NCBI GenBank assembly: GCA_019677205.1
Contig: JAAMXY010000040.1
Span: 186,001-250,000 of the forward strand
Reading direction: 5' to 3'
DNA length: 64,000 bases
DNA from: Pinguiococcus pyrenoidosus
Lineage: Eukaryota > Sar > Pinguiophyceae > Pinguiochrysidales > Pinguiochrysidaceae
Shown: positions 16,201 to 54,379 of the stretch, piece after piece
How the letters are laid out: every line of letters starts with the position of its first letter
Position numbering within the stretch: position 1 is the first letter of the stretch
Notes under the pieces: generated by a model
Seen by the model: the letters and a program-made list of their open reading frames with translations, nothing else
Told to the model about the DNA's origin: nothing
Databases searched by the model: none
Translations under genes and position numbers: made by a program

Positions 16201-16632
16201 CACGTCGTACGTCTTGTCGTCCGGCTCCAGGAAGGCCTCGTCCTCGACGTCGTCCACCACGAAGCCGTCGACGATGCGGCTCTCCAGCTGCCGCGAGATG
16301 ATGCCTTGGATCATCAGGCCCACCACGAGGAGTGTCATGCCGAAGACGAAGGCCACGCAGCCGCCGGCCAAGTACCAGCGGACGCCCGTCCCCTTCTCGC
16401 CTCTGCTCGTGCTCTTCGCGCCGGTGGTATTATTCACGACGACGTGCTTGTTGGCGCTGATGATGGGGACGTTCGAGCCGCCGCCCAAGTGACCAGGCAT
16501 GCTGCGCGACCATCGGTGGCGCGATGCCTGCGGCGGGTTGACCGGGCCCGTGCGGCCCGCGTCCGATCCGATGGGCAGGTCCCTGCCGCGCGAGGCCGTG
16601 GGCGCCACCTTGAGCACCTGGACGCCTTTCAT
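13300..16632 (-). CDS. CD36/LIMP-2 family scavenger receptor-like protein, very large ectodomain
   Basis: Two-TM membrane glycoprotein of the CD36/SCARB/LIMP-2 family, which bind lipids and lipoproteins or carry lysosomal enzymes. Exons: 16632-13816, 13721-13614, 13535-13425, 13350-13300; 1028 residues. TM1 (about 86-112) is WYLAGGCVAFVFGMTLLVVG, followed by the family hallmark KTYDVYFWNITNAYDVQ and EFWEYWSYY. C-terminal ectodomain blocks SVGMNYKGDD, QIDICSGIRDGNC, LVISLPRL and VYGYPELAF match the family; TM2 is VVFLVFGPILLVLAIACFVS with a short tail. Typical members have 470-520 residues; here a central insert of roughly 450 residues (about 290-740) rich in Ala/Gly/Ser/Tyr with four-Cys spacing (CQGY, CVGTC, FCRR) doubles the ectodomain. 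Many N-glycosylation sites. The short last exon is fixed only by phase and stop. Confidence 0.85.
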
Positions 16633-17453
16633 CTTTCCGCGCTCCTCCTGCGGGGCTCCGGCGCCCTGGGGAAACGTGCGGTGCCTTGCCCCGCGTGCTG
16701 TTAGTTTTCGGCGGATCCGAGAATCGATGTGGAATGGCGAAACGCAGAAAAAGCGTTAAGATGTCCTCGCGCCGGGAGTTGCGGGGGAGCCTTCCTCGTG
16801 CTGTTCCACGGCCGAGGAAGGCAAAATGGGGGTGTTTTGCGCGCGAGTCCACGTCTCTCTGGAGGAGAACGCATTCCATTGGTGAATCTGGATTCAAACT
16901 CAACTGGATCGAGAATTTCATTGGATGAATTTGGAGACATGCATGATGTATCCAATCAACAAGGACGTGATGTCAGCGAAAGAGTAACCGACGCCTCCTT
17001 ATTCCAGCCATACACGCAGACGCGGGTCAGTTTCGATGGGGCAACATTCGTTGCTGGGAAAAAATTGGGGCTCTCCCGCGATCCTTCCTGTGAATCTGCG
17101 GAATCGCCAGCACCCCACGAACCCTCGGCCCTTGGCAGCGATGCGCGTATCCGCTTGCAAGCTGGGGCTCGGAGCGACCGCCCTCGCATTGCGACCAGCC
17201 TCCCAATGCTGCAGAGTAGCAGGTGGGTTTGGGGAGGCGGAGCCTCCCACGACAGGCCCGCGGACCTCCTGCAAAGCCACTTCATCGGCTACCATGGTCC
17301 TACAGCGACGTAGAGCATTGGCGACGGACGGAAGGCACTCACGCTCCTATGTCACAGGCAAAGGGGGAGGAGCTGGATGCGGTGGCGAGGGAAAGCGAGA
17401 TCGAGATGAAGGAACGGAGACAGAAAAGCAAAAGAGGCGCAGAGCGTGTGCAT

Positions 17454-17680: not shown

Positions 17681-20600
17681 CTACACACGAAGAACAAGTC
17701 TTCTCGCTGGAAAGCGCCTCCGCAGGTACTTCCGCACGGGCCCCGCAACCGCCACCTTCTCCCATAGGACCGTCACGACGCAGCTGGCGATGATCAAGAT
17801 CCACAACCGGGCGCGCAGACTCTGAGACATGCCGTAGTCATCGGTCGCCGGGCCTCCCTCGCAGTCGGGGAAGTCAGCAAGGGTGTCGGGATCTCCGAGA
17901 TGTGCGTTCTGGTAGTTCTGCCAGACCACCGAGGACGTGTCGTTCGCATTGAAGTTCCGCGACGCGATGTGCCAGATATCCGTCAAGTCGTTCGGCCCAG
18001 ACAGCAGCACGACGGCGAAGAGAAGCATCAGCGACACATAGCACGCGACGATGGTGACGTTCGAGTAGATCGGCTTACGGTACTCCCCTCCAAAGGTGTA
18101 TAAGAACGCCGTGTGAGTAAGCATGATGGTGAACGACATGAAGATCGTCGTCGACTCCCAGTTGTCCCCCAGCGTCCACCAGTCGTTTCCATCGCCGCAC
18201 TTGTACGGCCAACGGATGTAGCCGTCCTCGGCCTGGAAGGTGCGGATCAGCGCCACGTAGAAGAGCACGTAGATGAGGAAGACGCCAATGCTGCTGGCCA
18301 ACGATTCGGGCCCGAGCAGCGAGCTCGTCGGGCGACGAGGACTGAGCGCGTCCAGAGGCTCCGACAGCGTCATCGCGTAAGACATGGTAATGAGCACCAG
18401 CACGTCGACGCTCAGGTAGCTCATTGCCGGAGGAATGATGGAAAAGATGAGGATGAGAAGCTTTGCCACGCTGAAGAGCTGCCCGTACAGGATGACGAAC
18501 TTGAAGCACGCGAAGGAGGTCGTCAGCGCGCACCGACCCTCCCGCAGCAGATCGACAACGCTCCGGATCGTCTTCGCCCGGCTGGTGAACGGGCTCACAA
18601 CGGAGGCTTCTGCTTCGCTGAGCGCCACGCCAGCGTGGGCGGTGCGAAGTGCTCCGCAGTCATTCCCACCATCTCCGCACATCGTCACCACCAGGCCCAT
18701 GTTGATGTAGCGCTGGATGATCCGCTGCTTGGTGATCGGGGACGTCCGAGCGAAGATCCGAAGCCCCGTGAACATCTTCATCAGCGCCTCTTCGTGGTGC
18801 TCCTCCATGTAAGCAAAGGCGTCCCCCGTCAGGGCAAGCTCCAGATTCGGCCCGACGCGGTACATTGCAGCGGCTGCCGAGAACTGCGCTTGATCGTCTG
18901 CGGCGCTCGACGATCCACGCGGAAGAACTTCGAGCGCAGTGCTATCCACGGAGCCAAACTGAGACATGGACGCTTGGGCAAGGCCTTCGAGAAGCTCTTT
19001 GGTGTCGCACGGTAGCTTCATGGCCTTCGGCAGGTTCGGATGGCTCCGCATGCCGCTCTGCAGAAGCTCTTCCGGGCTGTCGCCGGACTTGCCGCCCGTG
19101 TGGAAGGGAGACTCCGTGTCGTCAGCATCTTGGACCACGTCATCCGTGGGGTTCATGACGCGCCAAAGCACTCCCCCAACTGGACTTCGTTCACCGATCA
19201 CCACGGCCGCGTTGGGCAAGATCATCCCGCTTCTCTTGGCGACATATAGACCGTTCTCTGCATTGTCGCCCGTGATCATCACCGGGCGGACGTCCCCACG
19301 CTTGAGGTCCTGCATCGCTGCGTGGGAATCCCCCTTCAACTCGTTGCGGAAAAGAATGAGACCCAGAACCTCGAGCCCCGTCTCCGCCTCGTCGCGGCTT
19401 TGGGAGAGAATGGATGCATCGGATTCGTCGCCCATCAACTTGTATGCCATCGCGAGGACGTAGCATCCATCCTGAGCCGCTTCCCTTGCCCGCGCCAGCA
19501 GACGCTCGAGCTTGTTGCCTTCGCTCTGAGTGCACATTCGAGCGATGGTCTCGGGGGCACCCTTGACGAAGGTGAACGTCGGGGCCTGGCCAAGACCGTC
19601 GGAGGTGTCGCGGACCACCACACTCATGGACATGCGGGCATGGTCGAATTCGTTTCTTTTCACCACCTCCACTGCATGCACTCCGCTGGAGGCGTCGCTC
19701 GTATCCTGGGTCGCAGCGGAAAGCCGTATACGGCGACCGCTGGTCTCTTCCATCGTCCACCCTGTGGCTTCGAACATGCGCACCTCAACTTCGTTGCCGA
19801 CCAGCTTGTCTCCAAGCTTGGTCAGCGCGTGGCAGGCAACCATTCCCAGGAGAAACGCCTCGGGCAGATCCTTCTCGCGCGGGTCGAAGGGGGAGAGCAG
19901 CTGCTCGCCCCGGTCTTGCACCACTTGCACGCCGACCAGGTCTAGCCCCTCCTTCGTTATCGTACCCGTCTTGTCGAAGCACGCGACTCTCACCTTCCCA
20001 CAGATGGCAATTCGCTTCGGGTTGACGCAGAAGATGCCCATCTTGCGGAGGCGCCGGGCGCTCATCGTCTGCCCCACCTGCAGGGACACGGGAAGCAGGG
20101 GCGAAAGGACCTGAGACACGGTGAACATGCCGTACGCCGTCCGCACGACCCAGTACGTGGTCGTCCCTTGGGAGACTTGGATCGCCACGGAAGCAATGAA
20201 GAGGAAGACGGCATAGACGCAGAGGATCACAAAGATGACCAGAAACTCCTCGTCGTACTTGAACCGCATCTTCGGCGGGTTCAGAATCATGCTAACCAAC
20301 TGTCCCTTGCTCGTGGATATGTTGGTCTTGGTGCAGACGGCGACCGCATCCTCACTCGCCTGCAGGACGGTCGTTCCTGCAAACAGCGTCTGCTTGGAGT
20401 GCACGTCGGGGTCGTAGACCGTGGTGTCGTTCCAGTCGAGCGCTCGAGCCGCCTTCGCCACCGGCATGGATTCCCCCGTGAGGCCCGCCTCGTTGGTGAC
20501 CGCCGTGCCTCTGACGAGCACCATGTCGCACGGTGCCGTCCAGGCGCTTTCCACCTTGATCACGTCGCCGGGGACGATGGCCTCCGCCGGGAGCCTGTTG

Positions 20601-21958
20601 TACGTGCCATCCCGCCCAATGCAGGCCTCGCCGTCGAGCTGGGCGAGCGACTTGATCGTGCGCTGGTTGCTTGCCTTGATGTACATCGACACAGAGGCGG
20701 AGAAGAGGACGATGGCGAACTCCAGCGCACCGGTGAACAAGTAGGCATCCCAGAACCACCAGGCGTAGAACATCACCTGATAGAAGAACAGCGCCGACAC
20801 GAACTCGTCGTAAACCAGCTTCCCGAAGCTGTCCACCTCGAAGGCGATGCGGTTCTCCCCGACCTGCTGCATCCGGAGCTCCGCCTCGTCCGTCGACAAG
20901 CCCCTCACAGCAATCTTCGGCGAGGCCTGCCCCTGAGGACCCGCGGCTGTGATGGGATCAAAGGCGGACGCCAGCTTCCCGAACGTGATCTCCGTGTCGA
21001 TCTCGGGAAAGCTTAAGCTGTCGGCCGTGAGGAGGTACCGATTGCAGTTCAGCTCGATGTACCGCAGCGGCTCGGGCCGGAGCTTGATGGGGGGTTCCGT
21101 CAAGACCTTGACGGTCTGGCTGAATCCCTTCGAGTCCGACTGGAAGTACTCCGCAAGGCGACGCGCGACCACGACGCACACCGTCGGGGTGGTCGTCAGG
21201 TTCTCTGGGTCCGGGTCCGTCTGCCACACTCGGATGTACTGCGCCTCCCGCATGCTGCAAGGCTGGCGGAACCAGTTGCCGAGCTCGTCAGAGTAGATGA
21301 AAAGCCCCGCAAACCAGACGACTCCGAAGATCCACACCGTGAAGAAGATGTCCGCGTTGGTCTCGAACTCGCCGGTGATCGGATAGTTTCCGTAGAAGCA
21401 CTGCTTATCGACTCCTCCCACTTGGCAGTCATTGTACGTGTCGACCAGAATCGCCAGGAAGACCACGAAAATCCCCACGGAGGTCAGCTGCACGTACAGC
21501 AGAGCCAGCGTGCCCGGCAAGTGGCTTCGGTACGCGCGATAGCTCATGTTCTGTTCCCCCCCCGGCCCCTGCGCACCTTTCTTGGCCTCTTCCCCCAGCT
21601 CAGGGATCTCATCGGCCACGGCGGCGCCGCTGAGCTCCAGACTCTCGTACTTCATCGCCCGCGGACAGGAGATGCATTGCACCGGCAGAACGTCGTCATC
21701 CTTCAGGCGGAAATGGCCATATGCCCCGAGCACAACGACGCCAAGACTCAGCCACACGAACACGAACACGACTCCAGCGTCGGCAAAGCCATCCAGCGAC
21801 GCTCGGCACGAGCAGGGCCCGCCCTCACTGGGGGAGCAGCACGGATCTGGTCCGTCGGGGTAGTCATAGGCCGCCAAAGCTTGGCCAAGACTGCCCAACG
21901 CTGCACAGCCTGCGACCACCGAGGACGCACACCCGATCCGGGGCAGTCGCCATACCAT
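17681..21958 (-). CDS. P5-type (ATP13A-like) P-type ATPase
   Basis: Single-exon 1425-residue P-type ATPase; P5B members export polyamines from endo-lysosomes and P5A members dislocate TM helices in the ER. Catalytic Asp662 lies in CFDKTGTITKEG; the actuator TGES (about residue 491), the nucleotide-domain KGAPE and the hinge MITGDNAENGLYVAK and GDGGNDCGALRTAHAGVALS are all present. The block GDGGNDCGALRTAHAG...LSEAEASVVSPFTS is the P5-specific signature, and KMGIFCVNPKRIAICGKV after TM4 is also P5-typical. The TM4 substrate motif reads SPLLPVSL, not the PPALP (P5B) or PPELP (P5A) consensus, so specificity is uncertain. The chosen ATG opens a signal-peptide-like segment (VVAGCAALGSLGQALA) followed by a Cys-rich stretch; eleven more codons upstream start only at a GTG. 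Ten or more TM helices can be counted. No interruption of the frame. Confidence 0.93.
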   Translation of the reverse strand: MVWRLPRIGCASSVVAGCAALGSLGQALAAYDYPDGPDPCCSPSEGGPCSCRASLDGFADAGVVFVFVWLSLGVVVLGAYGHFRLKDDDVLPVQCISCPRAMKYESLELSGAAVADEIPELGEEAKKGAQGPGGEQNMSYRAYRSHLPGTLALLYVQLTSVGIFVVFLAILVDTYNDCQVGGVDKQCFYGNYPITGEFETNADIFFTVWIFGVVWFAGLFIYSDELGNWFRQPCSMREAQYIRVWQTDPDPENLTTTPTVCVVVARRLAEYFQSDSKGFSQTVKVLTEPPIKLRPEPLRYIELNCNRYLLTADSLSFPEIDTEITFGKLASAFDPITAAGPQGQASPKIAVRGLSTDEAELRMQQVGENRIAFEVDSFGKLVYDEFVSALFFYQVMFYAWWFWDAYLFTGALEFAIVLFSASVSMYIKASNQRTIKSLAQLDGEACIGRDGTYNRLPAEAIVPGDVIKVESAWTAPCDMVLVRGTAVTNEAGLTGESMPVAKAARALDWNDTTVYDPDVHSKQTLFAGTTVLQASEDAVAVCTKTNISTSKGQLVSMILNPPKMRFKYDEEFLVIFVILCVYAVFLFIASVAIQVSQGTTTYWVVRTAYGMFTVSQVLSPLLPVSLQVGQTMSARRLRKMGIFCVNPKRIAICGKVRVACFDKTGTITKEGLDLVGVQVVQDRGEQLLSPFDPREKDLPEAFLLGMVACHALTKLGDKLVGNEVEVRMFEATGWTMEETSGRRIRLSAATQDTSDASSGVHAVEVVKRNEFDHARMSMSVVVRDTSDGLGQAPTFTFVKGAPETIARMCTQSEGNKLERLLARAREAAQDGCYVLAMAYKLMGDESDASILSQSRDEAETGLEVLGLILFRNELKGDSHAAMQDLKRGDVRPVMITGDNAENGLYVAKRSGMILPNAAVVIGERSPVGGVLWRVMNPTDDVVQDADDTESPFHTGGKSGDSPEELLQSGMRSHPNLPKAMKLPCDTKELLEGLAQASMSQFGSVDSTALEVLPRGSSSAADDQAQFSAAAAMYRVGPNLELALTGDAFAYMEEHHEEALMKMFTGLRIFARTSPITKQRIIQRYINMGLVVTMCGDGGNDCGALRTAHAGVALSEAEASVVSPFTSRAKTIRSVVDLLREGRCALTTSFACFKFVILYGQLFSVAKLLILIFSIIPPAMSYLSVDVLVLITMSYAMTLSEPLDALSPRRPTSSLLGPESLASSIGVFLIYVLFYVALIRTFQAEDGYIRWPYKCGDGNDWWTLGDNWESTTIFMSFTIMLTHTAFLYTFGGEYRKPIYSNVTIVACYVSLMLLFAVVLLSGPNDLTDIWHIASRNFNANDTSSVVWQNYQNAHLGDPDTLADFPDCEGGPATDDYGMSQSLRARLWILIIASCVVTVLWEKVAVAGPVRKYLRRRFPARRLVLRV

Positions 21959-22929
21959 GGCTGCTGAGCTCGGCGGCGCCCAGACAGCCACAGCGCCGTG
22001 TCAGCGGCGTTGTGGAGACAGAGACGAATGGGGGAAAGATGTCATGCGTTCTTATGGGATGCTATGCGGTGATAGTGATGGAGAACAGAATGGATGTGGA
22101 CAGAGAAACCGGATGGATGGCGATCGGCCTTTGTGCCTCGTCTTTTTGTACTATCCGAGAGGTGGAAATAAGAGGCACATGCTCGAGGTGGTCAAGGTGG
22201 GCGATAATTTGAAGCAGAAATGCCGACTCGTCTGCTTGCTGTGTGCGATGACCCCCAAATATATGCAGCAGCGAAGAGAATGCATGTTCGCCGCGGCTGT
22301 CGTGGCCTCAACCATGGCCACAACGCGCACGTTCTGGACGCCATGGAGGTTTTGAAGGAGATATGGAGCAACAAGAATGACAACAAGGAGGCAGGAGGAT
22401 GGCGTGTCGAGCCAAGCAAGCTGGCGACCGAGAATGCGGGCGGGGGCGAGGAAGATGAAGGCAGCAAGAGGAGCTGCTCCACACACCCGCCCTGGCTGCC
22501 TGGCTGCATGATTGCTTCAAGCCTGGCTGCCTCACTCCTCGGAAGGTGGAAGCAAGCTTGCACTGCCTTGGTCGCTACGCAACGCGGGAAGAGTGGTGGC
22601 GAGGGGCGGGCTGGCGTTCGGCATGTTGGAGCATGGGCCCTTCGGAAAACCTGCATGTCGTTGGCGCGCGTGAAGCATTCCGTTGTCAAGCCCCATGAGA
22701 AACACGCTTTCACACTTGAGCGTTTCGGTAACTTTTATTTTATCAGTATCAGAATGAATATTTCTTGAATGATCTCAATTTTCGCCCACCCCGGGAACAC
22801 GCACGTCGCGGTGATCCAAAATATTTTAAAACTCATTTTTAGAATGCTGATCATATAATTTGATTATGATAGAGGTTCTTAATAAAATAAGAATATATCA
22901 ATGAAACTCCAAAGAATATCCGCGGCGAC
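21959..22929. promoter_or_regulatory. Divergent intergenic region P5 ATPase / sterol desaturase
   Basis: About 970 bp between two divergent start codons. The half near the ATPase (to about 22700) is of average composition with no recognisable ORF. The 200 bp next to the desaturase (about 22725-22920) are strongly AT-rich (TTTTATTTTATCAGTATC, ATATTTTAAAACTC, TTAATAAAATAAGAATATA), in sharp contrast to the GC-rich genome, and are the best candidate for core promoter or nucleosome-free DNA. Confidence 0.55.
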
Positions 22930-25103: not shown

Positions 25104-25707
25104 GCTTCCACTGCAATTTTCAACGGTCGCAAGGACTCTCTGCACAAGCTCCAAGGTCCAAGGAGAAGCAATCTCGCGTGGGAAAGCCAGGAAACTCGAC
25201 GCTCGGGACGGCACCAGCAACTCGCTGCGGAAGAGTTCGGTGGTGCGCACAGCTGAAAACTTCACCTTTTTCCCTTTTCATGCTGCACGCTTTCCTCGAC
25301 ACGCCAGATCGATAGTGGTGCAATCCTTCCGACTGTCACAGCTGCGCAGGCGATTGGAGATTGGCAGACGCGGACCACGTTGCTCCCTTGCAGCGGCTGT
25401 GCTAAGTACTCCAACGGCGTCTGCGATTTCGTGTTACAAGCGCCGCGGTGACGTCCAGACTTGGAGGCGCCGGCGACATCGCGACAGCACCGAGACGCGA
25501 CGCCGGACACCGCAGCTGCCCAACGTGTCTGCCGCGTCGAGAAGCGGAGCAGAGCTCCGCGGCACGTGGCGCGCGTGGTGCTGGTCGTCCGCGTGCGTTC
25601 GGAAGTCCGTCTGTCTCTTTGGAAGCGAGCGCGCGCCATGCTGTGAGCCATCACATGCCGCACCGCTTGCACCGCGCACCTAGAGGAGAAGAGATAGCGG
25701 TTGCGTG
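25104..25707. promoter_or_regulatory. Divergent intergenic region ClpP / ApaH-like phosphatase
   Basis: About 600 bp between divergent start codons, of average GC content. Several long overlapping frames exist on both strands but all are Arg/Ala/Ser-rich and without motifs. It must hold the promoters of both neighbours. Confidence 0.5.
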
Positions 25708-28700
25708 ATGTGTGTCGGAGGCGCGAAGGCGCTGCTTTGCCTTTGCGCCTTCGCTTCGCTTGTTTCCGAATCCCAGCCGCTTTTCCTGCCGAGGGGCCTC
25801 CGGACGCCTCTCGCGTTGGCACCGCCTGGCAGACGACTCGTGCTCTTGACGCGTGAGACGGCAGACCCGAACAATGCACCGGTGGCGGTGGAGTTCCAGT
25901 CCACGGCGGAGCTCCTGCGCCTCGTGTCCGCACCCGGCGCTGACAGGGACGTCGCGCTGCGTGCCAAGAGCACGCTTTTGGCCAGATACGCATACATCAT
26001 CTTTGAAGAGCTCGCGCAGCGTCGGGAGCAGGCGGACAATCTGGAGCTGCGCAGCAGACTCGTCGACTCCGCGCGCGCGGGACTGACCAAGGCGGTGGAC
26101 TCCTTTCGGAGCGGATACCTCACGTACAGCAGCAATCGGCAGGACGTGGACAGCCTCATTGGGTCGCAGATCGAGGCGGAGTTCAAGGCGCACGCGACCG
26201 CGATCGTCCATCATGAAGTGCGGATGACGCTGCATGCGGAGGCGCCAAGCGAGCTCGAGCCCCATCGTGAGCCTCGCGGCTATGTTTTCGGCCAGCAGGT
26301 CGAGGATGACGAGCAGTCTGCGGCCTTTCAGGAGCTGCAGGACCTTGCCGACGGGCCCCAGAGCGCGAAGCGCAATATTTCTGAAGTGGCGCGGGAAGGG
26401 CTGCGCCGAAGGCGAAAGAGACGACGGCAGCGGCTACGCCAGCGACAGCGCCTGAAGAAACTGGGCGCGCTCGTTGCGGACGAGCTCGTGGGAGAGGTCG
26501 GCGACGATCTCAGCGACGATCTCAGCGCAAAGGAATTGCAAGACCTCGACGGCGGCAGTGCAACAGACAGCAGCGATGACTTAGCCACGTATGACTGGAG
26601 AATCGGCAGCGACCATCAGCCGCCCTTCTCCGTTGAGGTGATGTATGGCATCGACGACGAACGCCAGGAACTTTCGGTAGAAAGCATGGCAGAGAACGGG
26701 AAACACGCGCCGGGCTACATCTTTGAGAGCACATCGCTTCAGGATGCCGACGCAGAAGTCGACGACGACGACGACAACGACGACCTCGTCGACGACGACG
26801 TCGTCGACGAGCAGGCTGCGATGCAGAGCTCCCCGGCAAGACGGAAATCGCGCGACGATGACTTGTTCTCGACGGCGAATCCGCTGAGTGTCATCGACTT
26901 CGCACCGCCAAAGCCAGAGCCGTCCGCGCTTGATCGAATGCTAGATCCCGAACTCAACAGTGCCGATTACTCGCTCAGCGCGGGCTTCTCCCGCAAGCGC
27001 GCTCCCGGCCTAGACCGAGCCGCACGGAATGGCACTGCCAAGGGGTACGCCTCGAACGAGAAAGCGGAAGAAAAGAACGCAGTCGATGCATCTCAAGGCG
27101 GAAGCAGGAGGAGGCCAATCAGGGACAGCCGAAGATCTGCACAAGCCGGAGCTCCCGCGAAAACGAATCTGCAGCTGGAGGAAGACCAGGCCCTCGAGGA
27201 GGAGAACGCGCTGAATGACCTCAAATTATCCTCGCCGAGGGATGCGGGCGTGGATCTGGAGAAGCACCGGGCGTACCGTGACCTTGTGCGGAGGACGCAG
27301 AATAACTACGTTCCGATCCAAGCAAAGTCCCTGCTGCGAACCGATGCGGACGCTGCTCCCCCGGCGAGGTGGCTGCAGATCCAGCTGAACGACCGGGGTT
27401 CGGACCCGTTCCACTACTTCAAGGTGAACGCGAACCACGTCGAGCCCATCTTCAGCATCGCGAAGAACCGGAAGTTCCGGAATGATCAGGCCATGAGGCG
27501 ACAGTGGCTACTCAACTGGCTCCGCGTGAGCATGCGCAACGACTTCGTCCCCTCGCACCTGGCCTCGATCGCGCTGAAGTACCGAAGCATTCGAAGGGCC
27601 CGAAAGGGAACGGGCCAGGGAAGGGATTCGGAAGACCTTGCCGACGCACTTTTGCAGGATGACGTCGAGGACGAGGCGATGGTGTCCGCCGCCGCAGCAA
27701 CGGCGGCGGAGGACTCGGGGAGAGCGGCGGCGGTGGGCCAAGCTGAGCAGTCGTTGCATGACGTGGACAAGGTGGAGGATCTCGGCGCGTTTGTCGAGGA
27801 GGCCGTGCTTCAGCGCTTCAAAGCCCAGCAGCCCAGGATCCTGGTCATAGGGGACGTGCACGGATGCGTCGATGAACTTTGCATGCTGCTCAAGGGAGTC
27901 GACTTCAGTCCAGGCGACCTGGTGCTGTTCCTTGGCGACCTCACCGCCAAAGGCCCCGACTCCGTTGCGGTCGTTCGCCTTGCGAGGCAGATTGGGGCCC
28001 TGGGGGTCCGCGGGAATCACGACTTTGAGGTCATCAAGTGGATCGAGGCGCTGCGGAAGTGCCCTTCGAAGCCCACGAAGCTAGATGCCAGTGAGCATAC
28101 GCGCATCGCGGCGAAGCTCGTGAGCCAGGACGCAGCGTGGCTGAAGAGTTGCCCCTGGTACATCCACAGCCCCGACCTCGAGATGTATTTCGTTCACGCT
28201 GGTGAGTTTCTGAGGGATGGAAACGGCACTTGAGGGGTCCGCCTTCTGGATTCGGTCTTGGGCGTTCGGTGCTGACGAGTTGCTTTGTCACCAGGTTTTG
28301 TGCCGTGGGTGCCCCCGCGACAGCAGAACCCTCGACTCATGATGAACATGAGATCAATTTTGACGGACAAGACGGTCCTTACGACGTACCCGAGCCCCGC
28401 CGGGGATATTGGAGGTGAGGCCAGTTCGGCGACGGGACGGAGGCTTGCATACGCAATTTCCACGGCAGAGCGGCTCCCTGATGTTCCGCGCTTCCTCGTC
28501 AAGGGAACTTGCTGGCGGAGTACGATCGTGAGGCGAGCTGGGCTCGGCTCTGGAAAGGCCCAGAGATCGTGGTGTACGGGCACGATGCGCAGCGAGGGCT
28601 GCAGCTCTTCGAGAAGGCCGTGGGCATCGACACTGCGTGCGTGTACGGAGGCCGCCTCACCTGCATGGTGCTTCCCGAGAAGAAACTCGTGAGCGTGCCG

Positions 28701-39120: not shown

Positions 39121-42100
39121 TTACGGGCGGATTCGGGGATCCGCGCGAGGGTAGTACGTGTCGGGACTCCGTTGGCGGCCGCCGCAGCGGCCCTCTCCCT
39201 CACTGTGAGCTGCGAAGAAAGCGCTGTGACGCGAGAAGATAGTCGTCAGGCCCCCGTTGCCGCAACTGCCCCACCGAGATCGACAGCACGAGGCACTGAA
39301 CTTCGCACCTTTCTTCTTCATCATGGCTCCGGCGACTCCGAGCTCAAGGTGTCGCATGCTCTCCATGAAGTGGTCGCGAAGCAGCTGCATCGCCTGCGTC
39401 TCCTCTTCGTCGGATTCGTCCACCGCGTTCGTCCACACCCACGTGCAGTCATGAGAGAACTCGAACCCGCGGGCGAGCGCATCCGTGTCGATGGCCGTGT
39501 TGTTCTCCACGGGAATCGCGTGGAAGGACCGGATGGACGCGTCGCGGAGCAGCTCGTTGCGCTGGTCTAGGGGCACCGACGCCTGAACCTCCAGGATGTA
39601 CCGCGCCCAGATCAGCAGATACTCTTCGGTGGCTTGATACTGCACCGAGTCGTACGTGTTGACCTGGAGGAGCGTGGACGATGAGCAAGGGCTCACGGTT
39701 TGCGCCATCCGCCTTCCGTTGTCTTCCCTCCCCCGGGGACGCACGTACCAGCATCGCAATCACAAGATTGATCAAAAGCAAGGGCATGAACAGAAGCATC
39801 AGCACGTAGACAAACTGGGGAACGGCGCCGGCGTCGTCGATGGCGTCTCGGATCCTATCGCCGTCACCAAGGATGAACTGCTCGAGCACGTTCCGGAGAA
39901 TGCTCCAGAAGCTGCCAAGCTGCGCCTCGGAGAAGCGAATGTAGAAGGCGAGGCTGAAGGCGAGCCAGAACACGAGGAAGAAGGAGAAGAAGATGCCCAT
40001 CGCCGAAGTCATGCGGAAGATCGTCTGGATATACGGACCTGCCAGACCGCCAGATGGGGCAACACATCAGGAACTCGAACCGAAAGGGCCGGAAACCAAG
40101 GAGCCCGGGCGTGCCGCATGGAGCGTGCTTGCTACGGTGACCTACCGATGAACTTGAACAAGGACAAGAACTTGAGCGTACGGAAGAAGAAGACGAGCGT
40201 GGTGAGCATGATAACCTCGGAGACGCCATCGGAGTTCGAGAAGCGGGAACTGCCCGGCCCGTCCACCGCAAATGCACCGATCACAATGAGCGCCACGACA
40301 GACGTGGTGACGTAGAGGATGATCTCCAGGTAGTTCCAAGGGTCGGTCCAGTAGTCCGACAGGAGTACCGTCCTTCCCAAGGCGGTCCTGTAGATCGATG
40401 TGGCGTCTTTCCACTGGCCAAACTCGCTGCGGAGGTTCTTGCAGGCAACGCCGACAACGCCGACGCCCAGTAGGATGGTGAAGATCTCGAAGATCACGCC
40501 TCGGCCCTGGTAGTGCAGCATCATCACGAACGCGACGTAGATGCCGAGGTCCAGGAAGTGGAAGGCCGTGTCGACGAGCGAGCTGCTTCGCGCGAAGGCA
40601 TCCCATCGAAGGGCGAAGTACTCGTGAACCAGGGGATGCCTGAGCAGGTCGGTGGCCTGCCTCTTCACAATCTTGCTCACGACGCTCTCGATCCCGTCGT
40701 CGTCTTCTCCGTAGTCCAAGAAGGCCAGGTCGTAGCGCCGCAGCCTCCAACGCACGAAGCGACGAACCTAGGCAGACGCGAAACCCGCTGTCAGCAGCCC
40801 CTCGCACCCACAACAAATTCCCAGGCCCTCCACACCTCGGTCACTTTGGAATCGAAGATCCAGGTCACCCAGTTGTGGATCTTTCCGATTGCCACCGACA
40901 CGGGGGTGTTTCCCTTGTTGCTCGGGAGGAAGGGGTCGCAGATACCCTTCTCGACGAGGTAGAACGAGAAATCCTCGTCACCGGTATCGCAGGTGTTGTG
41001 CAGAGGACTGGAACCATGCGAGTTGATGTGCCTCAGGTCGGTTCCCTTCTTCATGAGGTACTCGCGCACTTCCACTCGGCCGAAGCCAATCGCACTGCGC
41101 AATCGACAACGGGAGGTGTGAGACGCCGCGCCTCTCGGCGGGTTGCGGCCTGCCGCGAGCGGAGAACCGGGCACTCGGCACCAGGAACTTACCGATACGA
41201 AGGATAGCTTCCATTGCCATCCTCGACGTCGACCGGCAGTCCCTTCTTCTCGATGAGCCACCTGACCATGTCAAGCTTGCCGTCCTTCGCGGCATGGTGC
41301 AGCACCGTGAACTGTGCCCAGTCGCGCAAGGCGAGGATCTCGTCCACCGTCTTCTGCTTCAGCACCTGCTTGATGGTGTCGTACTTCTCCAGGTGGATGA
41401 GCTCGAAGAGTGTCTCGCGGTGGGCGATGACCTTGAGGCCGAACTTTCGGCCAGCGCCGGCGTACCCCATGACACGGGTCGTCCACGCATCCGCCTCGCC
41501 CAGCACGCGCTTCTGCACAAATGCCGTCGCCTTGAAGTGGTCCGCCGCGAGGGCGGTGAGGTCGCTCTGGTGGTCCACGACGAAGCCGACGTCCGCGATG
41601 TCCGACAGCAGGTCCTGCGCCGACACAGTCGCGGTCGGGGACCCGCCGATCTTCTTGTAGCGGTCGTACTCGTCCATCTCGTCCTTGGACCAGCCGCTTG
41701 GAATCCACGACTGGTGCATGTAGAGCTTGCCCCCCAGCTTGAGCACTCGGAAGACCTCCTCGAAGGCCACGATCCGGTCCTTGTGGCAGAAGCCGTCGGG
41801 GTCCTGGCCCAGCACGATGTCGAACGTCTCGTCCTCGAACGGCAGGTCGTAGATGGTCCCCTGCACGTAGGACACATTGCCCATGGCCTGCACGCCGGAC
41901 ATCGCCGTGGTGATGGCCTTCTGGACGATGTCGATGCCCACAAACTGGCTGTTGGGGAAGCTCTCCGCCAGATACGCCAGCGTGTTGCCCTCGCCGCAGC
42001 AGACGTCCAGCACTTTGCAGCCGCTGCGGAGACTCTCCTCGTTGTCGGCGACAAACTCCTCCGTGACCTCCTGCCCGCCGGCGTGCAGCTGGCCGCGCGG

Positions 42101-42412
42101 CTGAGGGTAGGTCTTCGACATGAGATCTGGAAGCGCAAGGAGCCAAAAAAACCGCGTCAGAGGTACGGCAGGCCCCTCTTCCTCCTTGGCGTCGAGAGAG
42201 GGAAAGCAAAAAGACCAAGCAAAAAGACAAAGCCAAAAAAAACAGAAAAAACGCTGGTCCGACGTACCATGGTAGTCCTCGCCGTAGAGGATGAAGCATT
42301 CGTAGCCCGGAGACTTCTTGGTCATGGCCTGCTCACTCATGCGGCGTAGGAAGTGCGTCTTGTGGTCCTCCGACGCACTGGAGTTGTTGCTCGCGCGATC
42401 CGGCCGCTCCAT
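39121..42412 (-). CDS. Methyltransferase-ankyrin-TRP-like channel fusion (paralogue A)
   Basis: Six exons: 42412-42268, 42126-41193, 41094-40836, 40767-40146, 40038-39749, 39663-39121; 930 residues, in phase throughout. Domain 1 (about 55-330) is a class I SAM-dependent methyltransferase: QLHAGGQEVTEEFV, motif I VLDVCCGEGNTLAY, motif post-I VGIDIVQKAIT, motif II FDIVLGQDPDGFCHKDR and motif III VFRVLKLGGKLYMHQSW. The GG-ExT entry and QD-x4-HKDR resemble sarcosine/dimethylglycine and phosphoethanolamine N-methyltransferases. Domain 2 has ankyrin repeats (FTVLHHAAKDGKLDMVRWLI, FGRVEVREYLMKKGTDLRHI). Domain 3 is a six-TM channel: S4-S5 region VFFFRTLKFLSLFKFIGPYI, S5 MGIFFSFFLVFWLAFSLAFY, pore region ILRNVLEQFILGDGD and S6 LMLLFMPLLLINLVIAMLV followed by NTYDSVQYQ as in TRPM/TRPC. 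The Ser/Cys-rich last ~50 residues may hide an unrecognised final intron (GTGCGA after MMKKK). Confidence 0.88.
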
Positions 42413-43075
42413 CGCCAACTAGCCTGCTGTACAGCGGCGCAAGCCCGTCTCCGCAAGGCCGCGCGCGTCCCTCTGCAGACGACCGACGCTCCTCCCTGTG
42501 GACTGATAGCTGGGCAGAAGGCCGCGAGAGCGGATTCGTCACCGTGAAGAGGCAACACGCGGGAGAGAGGGCACTGCGGCGCTGTCGTTCCGTGAAGATG
42601 CTTAAAGACGCGACCGAAGTACGGCGGAATAAGAGGCCTCCAATTCTTCAGGTATATAAGGGTGCAGCTAGACTTCGCTCGGACGGGCGGTGCACCAGTC
42701 GCGATCGGGGAAAGAAGTTCTTTTTCATACTTCTCCATGCCATAAAAGGAATAAGATGAAACTATTCCGAGGAAGACGGGACCTTGATTGGGCACTGGAT
42801 CCGTGCATGGATCCAATGGCGGCCAGAATGGCACCGCGATACGCCATATCGAATCGAATAACCGCGAAGATCCGTTCTTGGCCCAATCCCTCCGCAGCCT
42901 CCGTCCCGAAACTGGCACCGCACACATCCTCCGCATCCTATGCGGCGACACCGCCTGAAGCGTTCAGTTTCCACGGTCTTCCCACCGCCATATCACAGCG
43001 CCGCAAGCGGAAGTTCGTCGCTGGCGTCGCGGACGAGCCAGCGCCGCGCGCTCTCCAGATCGCCGCGCCGCCGCC
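42413..43075. promoter_or_regulatory. Shared bidirectional promoter of the two methyltransferase-TRP genes
   Basis: 663 bp between two divergent paralogues. A CCAATGG box lies at 42813-42819 and a CCCAATCCC at about 42888, with GATTGGG at 42786-42792. The centre (42640-42780) is AT-richer, including CAGGTATATAAGGGTGCAG at about 42651-42669, a good TATA-like element oriented to the right. No ORF of interest. Confidence 0.55.
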
Positions 43076-46000
43076 ATGTCTAGCAACCGGGTGGAGCCCG
43101 AGGAGAGCAAGACCGTGGCCGCGGAGGCCAAGCTGGCGGACGAGGACAGCAAGGCGGAGGCGGCGGGGCCGCTCCCGGAGGCCCTCCCCATGGCCACGAG
43201 CATCCAGGAGGCCTCTCCCGCGGCGCCGGCGGACAAGCCGGGCTGGGAGTGCTACGACGAGTTTCAGGACGGCTTCCACGACCGCCTGAGCAAGCACTGG
43301 CCCCAGCCGCGCAAGCAGCTGCACGCTGGCGGCGAGGAGATGACCGAAGTCTTCGTGGCCAAGGTGTTTGACCGCCTCCAGGCCGGCGCCACCGTGCTGG
43401 ACCTGTGCTGCGGAGAGGGCGCCACCATGGTGGCGCTCGCGCGGCGCTTCCCGCAGAGCCGCTTCACGGGCATCGACATCGTGCCCAAGGCCATCGCGGC
43501 CGCCACCCAGGACGCGGAGAACGCCAAGCTGGACAACGTGAACTTCGTGTGCGGCACCATCTTCGACCTGCCGTTTCCGGACGAGGAGTTCGACGTGATC
43601 CTGGCGCAGGACCCGGACGGCTTCTCCAACAAGGACCGCCTCGTGGCCTTCAAGGAGATGTTCCGCACGCTCAAGCAGTCCGGCTGCTTCTTCCTCCACC
43701 ACCACTGGATCCCCGGCGCGGACTGGACGGAGAAGCAGCTGGCCGAGTACGAGCAGTTCCACAAGAACAAGGGCTGGATGGCCTCCGCCTTCTCGGCCAA
43801 GAACTACATCGACGACGCCAAGAACGCCGGCCTGTGTCTGGACGAGGTGTCCGACCTCACCGAGCTGGCCCGCCGGCACATCGAGGCCACCGCCGAGATC
43901 ATGAAGAAGGCCGAGGGCCGCATATCCGACGACTGGGTGGCCATGAACGTCGAGTTCTTCCGGGAAGGCCGCAGCTTCGGCGTCCAGCTCTTCGGCCACC
44001 GCGAGTCCATGATTGAGCTGGTCAACCTCGGCCGCTACGACATCATCAAGGAATACATCAGCAAGCGGTCGAACGAGGAGATCCTTGCCATTCGCGACAT
44101 CTACGACTGGACCGTCTTTCACCACGCCGCCAAGGATGGAGAGGTACGTACCGCCTGCCCTCGTTGGGCCGGCAGAGCAGAGGGCGTCGAAGCCGGCTCA
44201 CAGCGCGCCTCCGCAGCTGGACTTCATCCGGTACCTGGTCGAGGAGCGCAAGATCCCGGTGGACATCAAGGATGGCAACGGCAGCTTTCCCGTGTATCGC
44301 GCCATCGGCTTTGGGCGCAAGGAGGTGCGCGAGTACCTCATGGAGAAGGGCACCGACCTCACGCACATCAACGAGCATGGCGATCACGCGCTGCACAACT
44401 CGACGGACACCGGCGACGAGGCCTTCTCCTTCTACCTGCTGGAGAAGGGCCTGTGCGATCCTTTCCTTCCGGACTCGTTCCACATGTCGTCGGTGGCGTA
44501 TGCCCTGCCCAACATGCCCAACTGGGTGATGAAGGTCTTCGACACGAAAATCACCGAGGTCAAGCGCTTCGTGCGCTGGAGGCTGCGTCGCTACGACTTC
44601 GCCTTCCTAGGTATGTTGGGCGCCCGCCTCTGTGCGAGCCTGGTCGGGGACTTATCGCGGCTGCGTAGATTACGGAGACCACATCAACGGCGTGGATAGC
44701 ATCATCCAGCAGATCGTCAACCGCGAGGTGCACGAGCTCCTGCAGCACAAGCTCATCCTCAACTACTTCCAGCTTCGCTGGGATGCGTTCGCCAGGCGTC
44801 GCTCGCTCCTCGACCTCTTCGAGCACCTCGTGGACCTGGGCATCCTCATCGCCTTCGCCGTCACCCTCCAGTTCCAGAGCGCCGGGATCGACGCGCAGAT
44901 TCGCGTGATCATCTTCTCGATCCTTCTCATCTGCGTTTCCATCAAGAACCTCCGCAAGGAGCTCCTGCAGTACCTCGACGCGAAGCTCGTGCGCCGCAAG
45001 TACTTCGGCTACGACGTCCAGATCAAGCAGTACTGGACCGACTTCTGGAATGGCATCGAGCTCACGATCTACACCATGTCCATCACGGTTGCCGCGCTTG
45101 TCCTCGTGGCCATCGGGGTGAACGGCATAGACAGCTCGACGTTTTCGAACGAGGGCGGCGTGACGGACACGCTCATGATCATCATCCTCCTGTTCTTCGC
45201 CAGGACGCTCAAGTTCCTGTCCCTCTTCAAGATGGCAGGCCCGTACATTCGCACCATCCTCCGAATGGTCAGCGACCTTGCGATCTTCTTCTCGTTCTTC
45301 CTGGTCTTCTGGGTCGGCTTCAGCCTCGCCTGGTTCATCCGCTTCCGGGAAGATGTCGTCGGCTCCCTGTGGAACGTGCACAGGACCGTGCTCGAGGCTC
45401 TTGTCGTTGGTACGTCACTGAATCGTATGCTCCCAGTGTGCTTCCGGGCCTTGGGCTCTCGCCGCACCGCGCCGCGCCTAACCCCGAATCGTGCATAGGT
45501 GACGCGGGAGACGTTCGTGAAGCCATTGACAGCGCCGGCTTCATCCCGCAGCTTGTCTTCGTCCTTATGCTCCTCTTGCTGCCCCTCATGCTGGTGAGAT
45601 CAGACTTGGCACTGGCGCTGCCTCTTGAACGAAGCGTGCTAACCGAGGTCGGCCCTCTCGTCCCTTACCTTCTTTTGCATGCCCTGTCCTGCTTCCTAGG
45701 TGAACCTGCTGATTGCGATGATGAACAACACGTAAGTTCCCGTCAAACGAGGTGAGGGGAGGGGGTGCCTGACCGCTTCGAATCCACGTGCTTTGCTAGG
45801 TACGCGATTGTCCAGTACAAGGCGAAGGCCGAGTACTACCTGCTGTATGCGCGCTACATCCTCGAGGTCCAAGCGGAGATCCCCGAGGACAAGCTCCGCC
45901 AGCTTCTTCTGGGTAAGTTGCACGCGAAGCTGGTGCATCAAAGCGCTTCCTTTTGGCTCACACAAAGTCCATGTGAATGGCGGCCGTGATGATCAGCGGC

Positions 46001-46555
46001 GTCCATTCGTTCCTTCCATAATGTCGCTGGCGAGAACAACACCAGGTACATGATCTTGGCAACAGAGAGTAGTGCACTAAAAGTCTAGTGAAATGAAGGG
46101 AAAATGAAGTGATATGAAATGAAATGAAATGAAATGATATGAACTGAAACGATATGAAATGATATGAAATAAATGATATGAAATGATATGAAATGATATG
46201 AAATGATATGAAATGAAACGATATGAAGTAGCATGGAAAGCGACCCGGGCTAACGTGCATTGAACCGATCAACAGCATTGACACCGTAGCCATGGCCCGT
46301 GGGTTTGAATTCTCGCCCGATTGCACGTGGGTCTGGAGCGACCGCAACCATCTTGACGAGGCGGAGGATACGCAGTCCCTGCTCTTCCTCCGTGAAGAAC
46401 TGCAGCAGACGCTGAACCGCATGGAGAAGCGACTTACGAAGATGATCGCGGAGGGTCCCGAAGATGACGACGCGCAAGAAGTGACCCACCGGGCCACCGA
46501 ACTCCCGTCCCCTGGCCTTCGCCGCTTTCGGGAGCGCCTCTCCGGTCACCTGTAG
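43076..46555 (+). CDS. Methyltransferase-ankyrin-TRP-like channel fusion (paralogue B)
   Basis: Eight exons: 43076-44143, 44217-44610, 44669-45409, 45499-45593, 45700-45731, 45800-45912, 45997-46045, 46276-46555; 923 residues, in phase throughout. After a ~55-residue acidic/Ala-rich tail, the methyltransferase (about 58-330) shows QLHAGGEEMTEVFV, motif I VLDLCCGEGATMVA, FTGIDIVPKAIAAA, FDVILAQDPDGFSNKDR and a His-rich core strand GCFFLHHHWIPG. Ankyrin repeats follow (DWTVFHHAAKDGELDFIRYL, FGRKEVREYLMEKGTDLTHI, HALHNSTDTGDEAFSFYLLE). The channel part (about 500-790) has S1-S5 such as LGILIAFAVTLQFQ and LAIFFSFFLVFWVGFSLAWF, pore segment VHRTVLEALVVGDAGD and S6 LVFVLMLLLLPLMLVNLLIA then MMNNTYAIVQYKAKAEYYLL, very close to the TRPM/TRPC S6 and TRP-box entry. 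The C-terminus has a coiled coil (LREELQQTLNRMEKRLTKMI). ATG in strong context (gccgccATGt). Confidence 0.9.
46111..46227. repeat. ATGAAATGAT-type tandem repeat in the last intron of paralogue B
   Basis: Imperfect array of GATATGAAAT and GAAAT units, AT-rich, filling about half of the 230-nt last intron (46046-46275), the longest intron of the gene. Confidence 0.9.
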
Positions 46556-52226: not shown

Positions 52227-53293
52227 TCATTCTACGCCTTGTCGCTTGCCGGACGGCACCCCTTCCACTCGGTCCACCCGATAGGCCATGTCTGCCCCCG
52301 CCGAAAATCTCTCAATCTCGGACACGGCGGAGCGGAAGTCATCCCAGTCGACGACAGCAGCGAAGAAGCTCCTCGCGGAGCGCGGGTCGAGGCTGGAGGC
52401 GGACGCGCCCATGGTCATGCGGAAGCCAAGCTTCCCTTCCTTTACAACAAACTCTTCGTCGTGGCGTGCAAAGTAGTGCGTCCCAGAGAGTTTCTCTGCT
52501 TCCTCCGTGGCGCGCTTTGACCTCTTCGCTGGCCGCTTCTCATCGTCCGCTCGGTCGTCCTCGCTCGCGGCGAGGTCGACCGGGCAGAGGCACACGAGCC
52601 GTGCGATGCGAAAGCTGTCGCGCTCTGCCTCCGACAGATCCTCCGTTGTTGTGGCCCATCTCACATCTTCCAGAAAGCACTTGTAGAGGGCCGGTATCAG
52701 CGGCATGGGCAGGTTGATCATCCGCGAGGAAACGAGGACGGCGGTGTCGTCCTGCTCCAGAGCTGCTTTCCAGGCGTCTTTCTCCGCCTTGGGGCACTTC
52801 TTCAGGATCAGGTCTCCGATGCGCTTAGCGGCATCGTGCTGCTTGTACTTGAGCGCGGAAAGAAGGGCATACACGTGCGCGTCTTCCTCTCCTTCCGGCG
52901 CGGTCACGAGCGAAGTAACCTCGCACTGGTTCAGCAGCGTCTCCGTGAGGCCCACCGCGCTGGGCACCGCGCCCAGGTGATCGCGCAGGAGGCTGCGCAT
53001 GCCGTCGAAGTACTTCTCGGACGGCGTGCAGAAGTCAAACTGCGCCTCAACAACGCTGTCGCGCGCTTGTCTCCCCTCCTTGCTCTCCGCCGCAGCCGCC
53101 GCGGCACTTCCCGCGCCTTCCGCGCTGCCCTCTTCCGCATCCTCATCGTCCTCGTCATCGTCCTCATCGTCGTCATCGTCATCGTCATCATCTTCGGCGT
53201 CTTCGGGCCGCCCGCGCAGGTCCAAGCCCTCGCTTTCGTCGTCGTCGTCGTCGTCGTCCGACTCGGTCTCCAGCTCGGGCTCCTCTGCCTCTG

Positions 53294-53338
<45 letters not shown>

Positions 53339-53429
53339 CCCGCGCTTGTCTCAGCAGATCTCCGCCGTCCTCCTGCGCCTCAGACTCCTGAGGCGCACTG
53401 GAGCGATTCTTGCGCTTTCGCTTCGTCAT
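52227..53429 (-). CDS. BCP1: BCCIP/BCP1 family protein
   Basis: Nuclear chaperone family: yeast Bcp1 escorts ribosomal protein uL14 (Rpl23) and functions in nuclear export; human BCCIP binds BRCA2 and p21. Single exon, 400 residues. Conserved blocks: FDFCTPSEKYFDGMRSLLRD, LNQCEVTSLVTAPEGEEDAH, VYALLSALKYK, INLPMPLIPALYKCFLEDVR and HYFARHDEEFVVKEGKLGF. The first ~150 residues are low complexity: basic start (MTKRKRKNRSS), a 14-residue Gln tract, then several Asp/Glu runs (DDDDDDDESEG, EDDDDDDDDDEDDDEDDEDA). The acidic region is a family trait; the Gln tract is not and is encoded by a pure CAG run, so it may be polymorphic. Start chosen at the MTKRKRKN ATG; the upstream continuation of the frame is read-through of the 242-bp divergent promoter. 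Confidence 0.9.
53295..53335. repeat. CAG/CTG trinucleotide repeat in BCCIP coding sequence
   Basis: About 13 pure CTG units on the plus strand (CAG in the gene) encode the poly-Gln tract. Confidence 0.95.
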
Positions 53430-53671
53430 GCTTGGCTGTGCTACACCCAGCGAGGCGGCGCGCCGCCTCGCTGGGATCAGCTGACGCCCGAAGCGCATCA
53501 GCTGACCGCTGGGGCTGTTCGAATTCCGCGCCGCTCTCCAGACCGCACAGCCTTTCGTGCCCTCGTACCGTTGTTCGCGCCGCCACCGGTCTCTGTCGTG
53601 GAGACCCTGCATCTCTGGACCGAGCTGACAAGCGGCAGAGCGCGAGGCGGCTGCCGAGCGGACGGAGCGAG
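53430..53671. promoter_or_regulatory. Divergent promoter BCCIP / coiled-coil protein
   Basis: Only 242 bp separate two divergent start codons. It contains an inverted repeat (GAGGCGGCG / CGCCGCCTC at about 53452-53470) that could form a hairpin or bind a dimer. Confidence 0.55.
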
Positions 53672-54379
53672 ATGCAGGAGATGGAGGAGGAGATCCACAA
53701 GGCCTGCAAGGAGATTTTCCTGCGCAACAAGGCCTTGTTCGCTCGCGTGGCGGAGCTTCAGGCGTCGGATGACGGCGACGAAGACGCGCGAAAGTGCCTG
53801 GAGCTGCTGCACACGAACCTGGTGACGCTGTGCAGCGTCATGGACCAGAACATGAACTTCGTGCCGCAGGAAGAGTACGACAACATACTGAAGGAGCGCC
53901 GGAACGGCTCGCAGATCCGCGCTGGGGACATCTTGTCCAAGGAAGGGGCGCAGCTCATGCTGGAAGCTGCCGCGGAGAGTCGCAATGCTGCACTGCTGCC
54001 GGTCAAGCCAGTCGCTCCCGCGCCCAGACCGCCGATTCTGCCCTACGGCGCCATGGGCATGGGCGGGATCAATCCGATGGCGATGGGCATGATGCTGGCC
54101 ATGAACCCCCTGTTCTCTATGGGCACCCTGGGCCTTGCGGGAGCGCCGCTCGTTGGAGCAGCCCAGCGCTCGCCGGTGGCCATGCAGGCGCCCGTCGCGC
54201 GTGCGCCTCCGGCGCCGGTAGTGGCGCCGGCCGCCAGCTCCGCTTCGGCCCCTTCGGCTCCCGATGTCACGGAGATGTTGGGCGAGCAGGAGAACTCCCT
54301 GATGGCAGCTCTGACAGGTTCTCCCGCATGGGATCCGACACACGAAGACTCGCTAGATAGACGAAAGCCAGGCACCTGA
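53672..54379 (+). CDS. Unrecognised coiled-coil protein with Met/Pro/Ala-rich tail
   Basis: Single-exon 235-residue protein. Residues 1-85 are helical and charged, with coiled-coil heptads (EMEEEIHKACKEIFLRNKAL, ARKCLELLHTNLVTLCSVMD). Residues ~90-120 contain EEYDNILKERRNGSQIRAGD. The remainder is low complexity: Pro/Ala-rich, then a Gly-Met-Ala stretch (GAMGMGGINPMAMGMMLAMN) and ApA repeats (APVARAPPAPVVAPAASSAS), ending with an acidic/Ser-rich tail. I know no family for it; SWI/SNF- or Mediator-type subunits have similar composition, but nothing specific matches. Its stop codon lies only 4 bp from that of the convergent RPF2 gene, so the two 3' UTRs must overlap in antisense. Confidence 0.72.
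   Translation: MQEMEEEIHKACKEIFLRNKALFARVAELQASDDGDEDARKCLELLHTNLVTLCSVMDQNMNFVPQEEYDNILKERRNGSQIRAGDILSKEGAQLMLEAAAESRNAALLPVKPVAPAPRPPILPYGAMGMGGINPMAMGMMLAMNPLFSMGTLGLAGAPLVGAAQRSPVAMQAPVARAPPAPVVAPAASSASAPSAPDVTEMLGEQENSLMAALTGSPAWDPTHEDSLDRRKPGT

Follow-up and report, generated by a model that had tools for sequence, protein, structure and literature searches.

Two genes lying head to head in the genome of Pinguiococcus pyrenoidosus are predicted to encode a class I S-adenosylmethionine (SAM) methyltransferase (MT), ankyrin repeats and a TRP-like channel with six transmembrane (TM) segments within one polypeptide. They are located in a stretch of 64,000 nucleotides (GenBank assembly GCA_019677205.1, contig JAAMXY010000040.1, positions 186,001 to 250,000; hereafter the window), of which the region concerned was read on both strands, with splicing modelled from GT-AG sites. 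Gene A occupies 39121..42412 on the minus strand, with its ATG at 42412 and its stop at 39121-39123, and its spliced model of 930 aa comprises six exons (42412-42268, 42126-41193, 41094-40836, 40767-40146, 40038-39749 and 39663-39121), although the C-terminal ~60 residues are uncertain because one more intron is possible there. Gene B occupies 43076..46555 on the plus strand, with its ATG at 43076 and its stop at 46553-46555, and its model of 923 aa comprises eight exons (43076-44143, 44217-44610, 44669-45409, 45499-45593, 45700-45731, 45800-45912, 45997-46045 and 46276-46555), among which exon 7 (45997-46045) was located by homology to gene A and restores the phase. The two start codons are separated by 663 bp (42413..43075), every one of the 12 introns in the models has GT-AG ends, and the reading phase is kept from exon to exon in both genes. 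The head-to-head pair of the first-pass annotation is present where it had been placed, each gene does form one reading chain, and the motifs quoted for it (VLDVCCGEG/VLDLCCGEG, QDPDGF and both S6 strings) were found again. Intron 7 of gene B contains a tandem repeat of a 5-base unit (TGAAA, ~28 copies) at window positions 46089-46227.

The order of domains is the same in A and B: an N-terminal MT, ankyrin repeats and the channel. A Pfam search, which had been proposed as a check, confirms all three parts, with Methyltransf_25, Methyltransf_11, Methyltransf_31, Ank_2 and Ion_trans above the curated cut-offs in both proteins (Ion_trans 42.2 bits in A and 40.1 in B against a cut-off of 25). In gene A, the MT domain covers residues 35-286 in exons 1-2 (41414..42310, minus strand; Methyltransf_25 1e-18, Methyltransf_11 5.4e-17), its end being set from P0002, an outside WD40-MT protein whose MT terminates the protein at the homologous point. 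It is followed by ankyrin repeats at residues 287-446 in exons 2-3 (40836..41413, minus strand; Ank_2 1.3e-12), by the pre-S1 region and S1-S6 channel at residues 447-750 in exons 4-5 (39749..40767, minus strand; Ion_trans 7.1e-11, six hydrophobic segments; C20:225746-226036 in the PF00520 scan), and by a TRP-helix region in exon 6, from 39663 onward. In gene B, the MT domain lies within exon 1 at residues 55-310 (43238..44005, plus strand; Methyltransf_25 8.2e-22, Methyltransf_31 8.4e-21), the ankyrin repeats at residues 311-470 in exons 1-2 (44006..44558, plus strand; Ank_2 8.2e-12), and the S1-S6 channel with its pore loop at residues 537-774 in exons 3-5 (44815..45723, plus strand; Ion_trans 3.1e-10), after which the TRP-helix region occupies exons 5-6.

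This architecture is not confined to the pair: a search for it elsewhere, also proposed by the first-pass annotation, revealed one more paralogue and one outside protein with the same order. The two copies originally counted do share one order, but the assembly holds three: paralogue C lies on another contig (C324; locus L025:1431-4578) and is 73% identical to A over 859 aa, while the alignment of A with B, 833 residues long, has 51% identity (E = 0). An allelic or assembly duplicate was considered and rejected on the A-B protein identity and on the divergence of the C324 copy from A, ~71-78% at the DNA level over the three longest blocks. The outside protein, P0001, one of three rows that reached E up to 0.001 when 7997 candidates were scored, has the full MT-ankyrin-channel order in one uninterrupted frame of 944 aa, so no assumption about splicing is necessary there; its end-to-end identity is 44% to B (with 96% of B covered), 42% to C and 41% to A. 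All four proteins have six hydrophobic regions after the ankyrin part. In P0002, the MT ends where the ankyrin helix starts in the fusion proteins; therefore, the MT abuts the ankyrin stack, and it does so without a linker in all four. The MT-ankyrin border is inside an exon in all three paralogues (exon 1 in B), and the ankyrin-channel border is inside exon 2 of B, whereas A and C have an intron exactly at that border. All five intron positions are common to A and C, and none is common to A and B. No match encoding a relative of the MT or of the channel was found in viral contigs.

What kind of channel follows the ankyrin repeats? A profile built from the four channel rows matches Inactive at 3.2e-15 and the TRPM2 chanzyme (channel-enzyme) at 5e-8, and the closest solved relatives by profile are Inactive and Nanchung, which we take to be insect TRPV channels, with the TRPM2 chanzyme ranking below them. 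The alignment to Inactive spans S5-S6 and the following (TRP) helix, and S5, S6 and the post-S6 helix are alignable with Inactive, Nanchung and TRPA1, the last of which was also reached in a search with the whole gene A protein. Among the matches listed (60 of 97 chains) are Inactive, Nanchung and one 'MKIAA1616 protein', the rest being labelled TRP or polycystin. Hence the channel part, as a sequence relative of the TRP superfamily, is best described as a predicted TRPV/TRPA-like six-TM channel. The earlier description of S6 as TRPM/TRPC-like stands as far as a TRP-type six-TM channel is concerned, but its TRPM/TRPC assignment was replaced on the profile matches, although TRPM chains match too. 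TRPV channels and TRPA1 carry N-terminal ankyrin repeats, and we know of no enzyme domain in TRPV (Inactive, Nanchung) or in TRPA1; here, in contrast, the ankyrin part is short (~160 residues) and has an MT in front of it. A search with the channel region of P0001 among 8000 scored candidates returned P0001 itself as the sole match, so no closer relative among channels without an MT was found. Structure prediction, also suggested by the first-pass annotation, gave graded support. In the AlphaFold2 model of P0001 (41 rows, mean pLDDT 70.7, pTM 0.52), the MT blocks are mostly at pLDDT 91-98 and ankyrin residues 321-410 at 86-96, the rest of the ankyrin part being at 75 or below, and in the channel part the six membrane helices S1-S6 are accompanied by a pore helix and a helix after S6, all at lower confidence (37-89). 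In the assembly as a whole (G000), Ion_trans matches number 81 and form runs of about four in one frame on C716, C411, C382 and C264; the assembly is therefore rich in voltage-gated-like channels.

As judged from its conserved columns, the MT belongs to a distinct family that is defined here by the motif QDPDG and bears no functional name. The family columns include W-P, QLH-x-GG, D-x-CCGEG, GQDPD, W and a C-terminal G, and 34 of the 44 conserved columns are kept in all four fusions, each with an intact SAM-binding motif. Of the 44 columns, 41 are present in B and likewise in P0001, whereas A differs at seven and C at six: Tyr replaces the first Trp in both A and C, and Arg replaces the His of QLH in C. 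In B, Ala replaces the G of GQDPD. The MT fold in the P0001 model, for which the match list covers mainly residues 59-322, resembles small-molecule methyltransferases, including phosphoethanolamine N-methyltransferase (PMT) and sarcosine/dimethylglycine N-methyltransferase (SDMT). These share the class I fold but only 17-19% identity with the QDPDG MT, and the PMT segment with the catalytic His is replaced in the fusion MT by QDPDG. We take this His, in the RDxILH segment, to be H132 of Plasmodium PMT. In the HMMER alignment to AtPMT2, the profile has Ser opposite the catalytic His, with a gap shortly before it; the residues at this position in B, A, C, P0001 and P0002 are S, C, C, S and A, and the next ones are N, H, H, H and K. 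Since a His is not common to all five rows, the MT is not filed as a PMT despite the agreement in fold. A WD40 protein is also fused to an MT of the QDPDG family, in P0002 and P0017.

The MT part has its own tempo of change. Between A and C, the ratio of nonsynonymous to synonymous substitution (dN/dS, NG86) is ~0.34 for the MT, 0.09 for the ankyrin part and 0.10 for the channel, and between A and B it is 0.81, 0.31 and 0.36, respectively, values that have to be read with an unreliable dS, as the GC content of third codon positions (GC3) is 83-89%. Identity between A and C is likewise lower in the MT (64%) than in the ankyrin and channel parts (72-88%), with the short N-terminus lower still (52%). 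When compared with P0001, however, the MT and S1-S6 are conserved to the same degree; thus the MT has been kept, yet it changes faster among the paralogues. Altogether, the fusion genes show signs of purifying selection.

Membrane partners of this MT are also found in prokaryotes. When 84,980 species genomes were scanned for the MT, 80 of 117 matching loci were kept, and six of them (L026-L031) are convincing over the MT domain. In three Lokiarchaeota (L027:7944-10094, L029:7965-10094 and L030:7950-10181), the MT is fused to a part of ~450 aa ending in two membrane helices, and in a Thorarchaeote (L026:3082-5198) this two-TM part is a gene adjoining the MT gene. The Lokiarchaeota fusions thus join the same MT family to a membrane protein, but their partner is a two-TM protein without a recognised family rather than ankyrin repeats and a TRP channel, and neither ankyrin nor Ion_trans matched in the two C-terminal parts scanned. 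A CorA-like identity for the partner, an impression from its layout alone, was dropped, as no PDB row appeared at E up to 10 and Pfam gave a single weak row (8xMP, E 0.12), for one of the four members. Among 227 genomes of the phylum to which these archaea belong, five match the two-TM part strongly and one more matches it weakly (44.6 bits); the MT profile matches 34 of the 227 at E up to 1e-25 but exceeds 300 bits only in the same five, the next being at 130 bits. The alignments used for these counts were built partly from those genomes, with the fifth (G005, titled Bathyarchaeota) outside the two-TM alignment. Each of the two genes of G005 reaches the end of a contig, and therefore they may be adjacent. 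On a Cyclobacteriaceae contig (L031:905-2112), the MT comes after a gene that encodes a membrane segment, and the N-terminal part fused to the MT in P0037 and P0050 resembles this upstream gene by eye.

In the rest of the window, neighbouring open frames match CD36 (13744-16755, minus strand), a P-type cation ATPase (17684-22000, minus strand), a calcineurin-like phosphoesterase (25684-28230, plus strand) and BCCIP (52230-53837, minus strand). Rfam gave no matches within the window.

With a channel and an enzyme domain predicted in one polypeptide, the fusion protein qualifies, by its sequence, as a chanzyme in a broad sense. For the channel-enzymes mentioned in the available part of PMC11479946, the enzyme is a nucleotide hydrolase, a kinase or an ATPase, and TRPM2 is presented there as a case of how an enzyme can set both local agonist and gating. 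The TRPM2 chanzyme of choanoflagellates and cnidarians, with its NUDT9-H domain, likewise combines a channel of the TRP type with an enzyme for small molecules in a single chain, and its channel is homologous to the one described here (5e-8). However, its enzyme is a C-terminal ADP-ribose hydrolase (PMC11479946, available part), whereas here an N-terminal methyltransferase is found. TRPM6 and TRPM7 are also TRP channels covalently linked to a transferase, but theirs is a C-terminal protein kinase (PMC11479946, available part) and not an N-terminal PMT/SDMT-like methyltransferase. Among the Pfam matches listed at E up to 1 for A (21 rows) and B (25 of 28), there is neither a C-terminal Nudix or alpha-kinase module nor an N-terminal melastatin region, the N-terminus being formed instead by MT and ankyrin repeats. 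No description of a methyltransferase-TRP fusion was found among the open-licence papers listed in searches, and neither 'methyltransferase' nor 'ankyrin' occurs in the available part of PMC11085791.

How might such a protein work? At the level of sequence and, in part, of models, a cytosolic N-terminal MT is followed by an ankyrin stack, a conserved pre-S1 segment and a predicted TRPV/TRPA-like six-TM cation channel. From this layout we infer tetramer formation, cation conduction, catalysis and coupling between the domains: four chains would most likely form a TRP-type tetramer with four MTs on its cytosolic face, the MT may methylate a small substrate of the amine or phospho-base type at the membrane, occupancy by substrate, SAM, S-adenosylhomocysteine (SAH) or product could be relayed by the ankyrin stack to the gate, and the entry of cations, probably Ca2+, would report or respond to the methylation state. 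The MTs of the channel fusions form one clade, and the four known fusions may have a single origin, from a eukaryotic branch of an old and mostly stand-alone MT family, the fusion gene having presumably undergone two or more duplications in this genome. We put the chances about even that the protein is a new type of chanzyme in which an MT is coupled to a channel through an ankyrin stack. Several observations weigh against it. The channel part of the models has low to middling confidence, and the small model built for exon 3 of gene B does not suffice to prove a channel fold; database labels within the MT family disagree (UbiE, sterol 24-C-methyltransferase); coupling between the domains rests on inference; among the paralogues, sequence change is faster in the MT than in the ankyrin repeats and the channel; and A and C are without family residues such as the His preceding the invariant Trp, so that these two might act as sensors or as altered enzymes.

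The last two points lead to a different view of the MT, which may be a sensor rather than an enzyme, binding SAM, SAH or a small ligand and gating the channel, with catalysis weak or lost. There is a precedent in vertebrate TRPM2, whose NUDT9-H has turned into a ligand sensor (PMC11479946, available part), and the losses in A and C would fit it. Nevertheless, an intact SAM-binding motif is present in each of the four proteins, B and P0001 retain nearly the whole set of family columns, and relative to P0001 the MT is as highly conserved as the channel, and hence we regard a pure sensor as doubtful, though well worth keeping in mind. Alternatively, the channel may mainly anchor or place the MT at the membrane, or the reverse, the two working side by side with no coupling to gating. 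This would agree with the ties of the MT family to other membrane parts in the Lokiarchaeota fusions and the Thorarchaeote, with the C-terminal hydrophobic segments seen in 8 of 64 listed family members and in none of 55 lower-ranked MTs, and with the TRPM6/7 kinases, which are reported to be decoupled from gating (PMC11479946, available part). However, when any terminal hydrophobic segment is counted, there is no significant enrichment (10/64 vs 4/55, p = 0.25), and the absence of an MT-ankyrin linker in all four proteins fits rigid coupling; we therefore consider mere tethering unlikely, but treat it, like the sensor, as a serious competitor of the coupled chanzyme. Finally, that a separate MT-ankyrin gene and a channel gene were wrongly joined, for which the intron right at the ankyrin-channel border of A and C might speak, is practically excluded by the sequences at hand, as one exon of B spans that border, intron positions differ between A and B, three paralogues keep the domain order and P0001 is a single frame, which also upholds the argument against an artefact made in the first-pass annotation.

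Besides the reading of the fusion as a chanzyme with coupled domains, a wider one can be tentatively proposed, and we hold it somewhat less probable than its opposite. The QDPDG family could be of old origin and serve as a methylation sensor or enzyme coupled to membranes. It would then have been joined independently at least twice to membrane proteins: to a TRP channel, as seen in this eukaryote and in P0001, and to the two-TM protein of Asgard archaea, with the strong matches to MT and partner falling in the same five of 227 genomes. The eukaryotic form would then be a methylation-gated channel and a channel-enzyme class of its own. The Asgard link raises the question of why one MT family, rare in prokaryotes, is bound to membrane proteins in separate lineages, and the fusion offers a defined test of TRP gating in microbial eukaryotes. 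If the chanzyme reading is true, a new type of enzyme would be added to the small set of channel-enzymes, and SAM metabolism, perhaps that of osmolytes or phospho-bases, would be directly linked to cation signalling within one protein.

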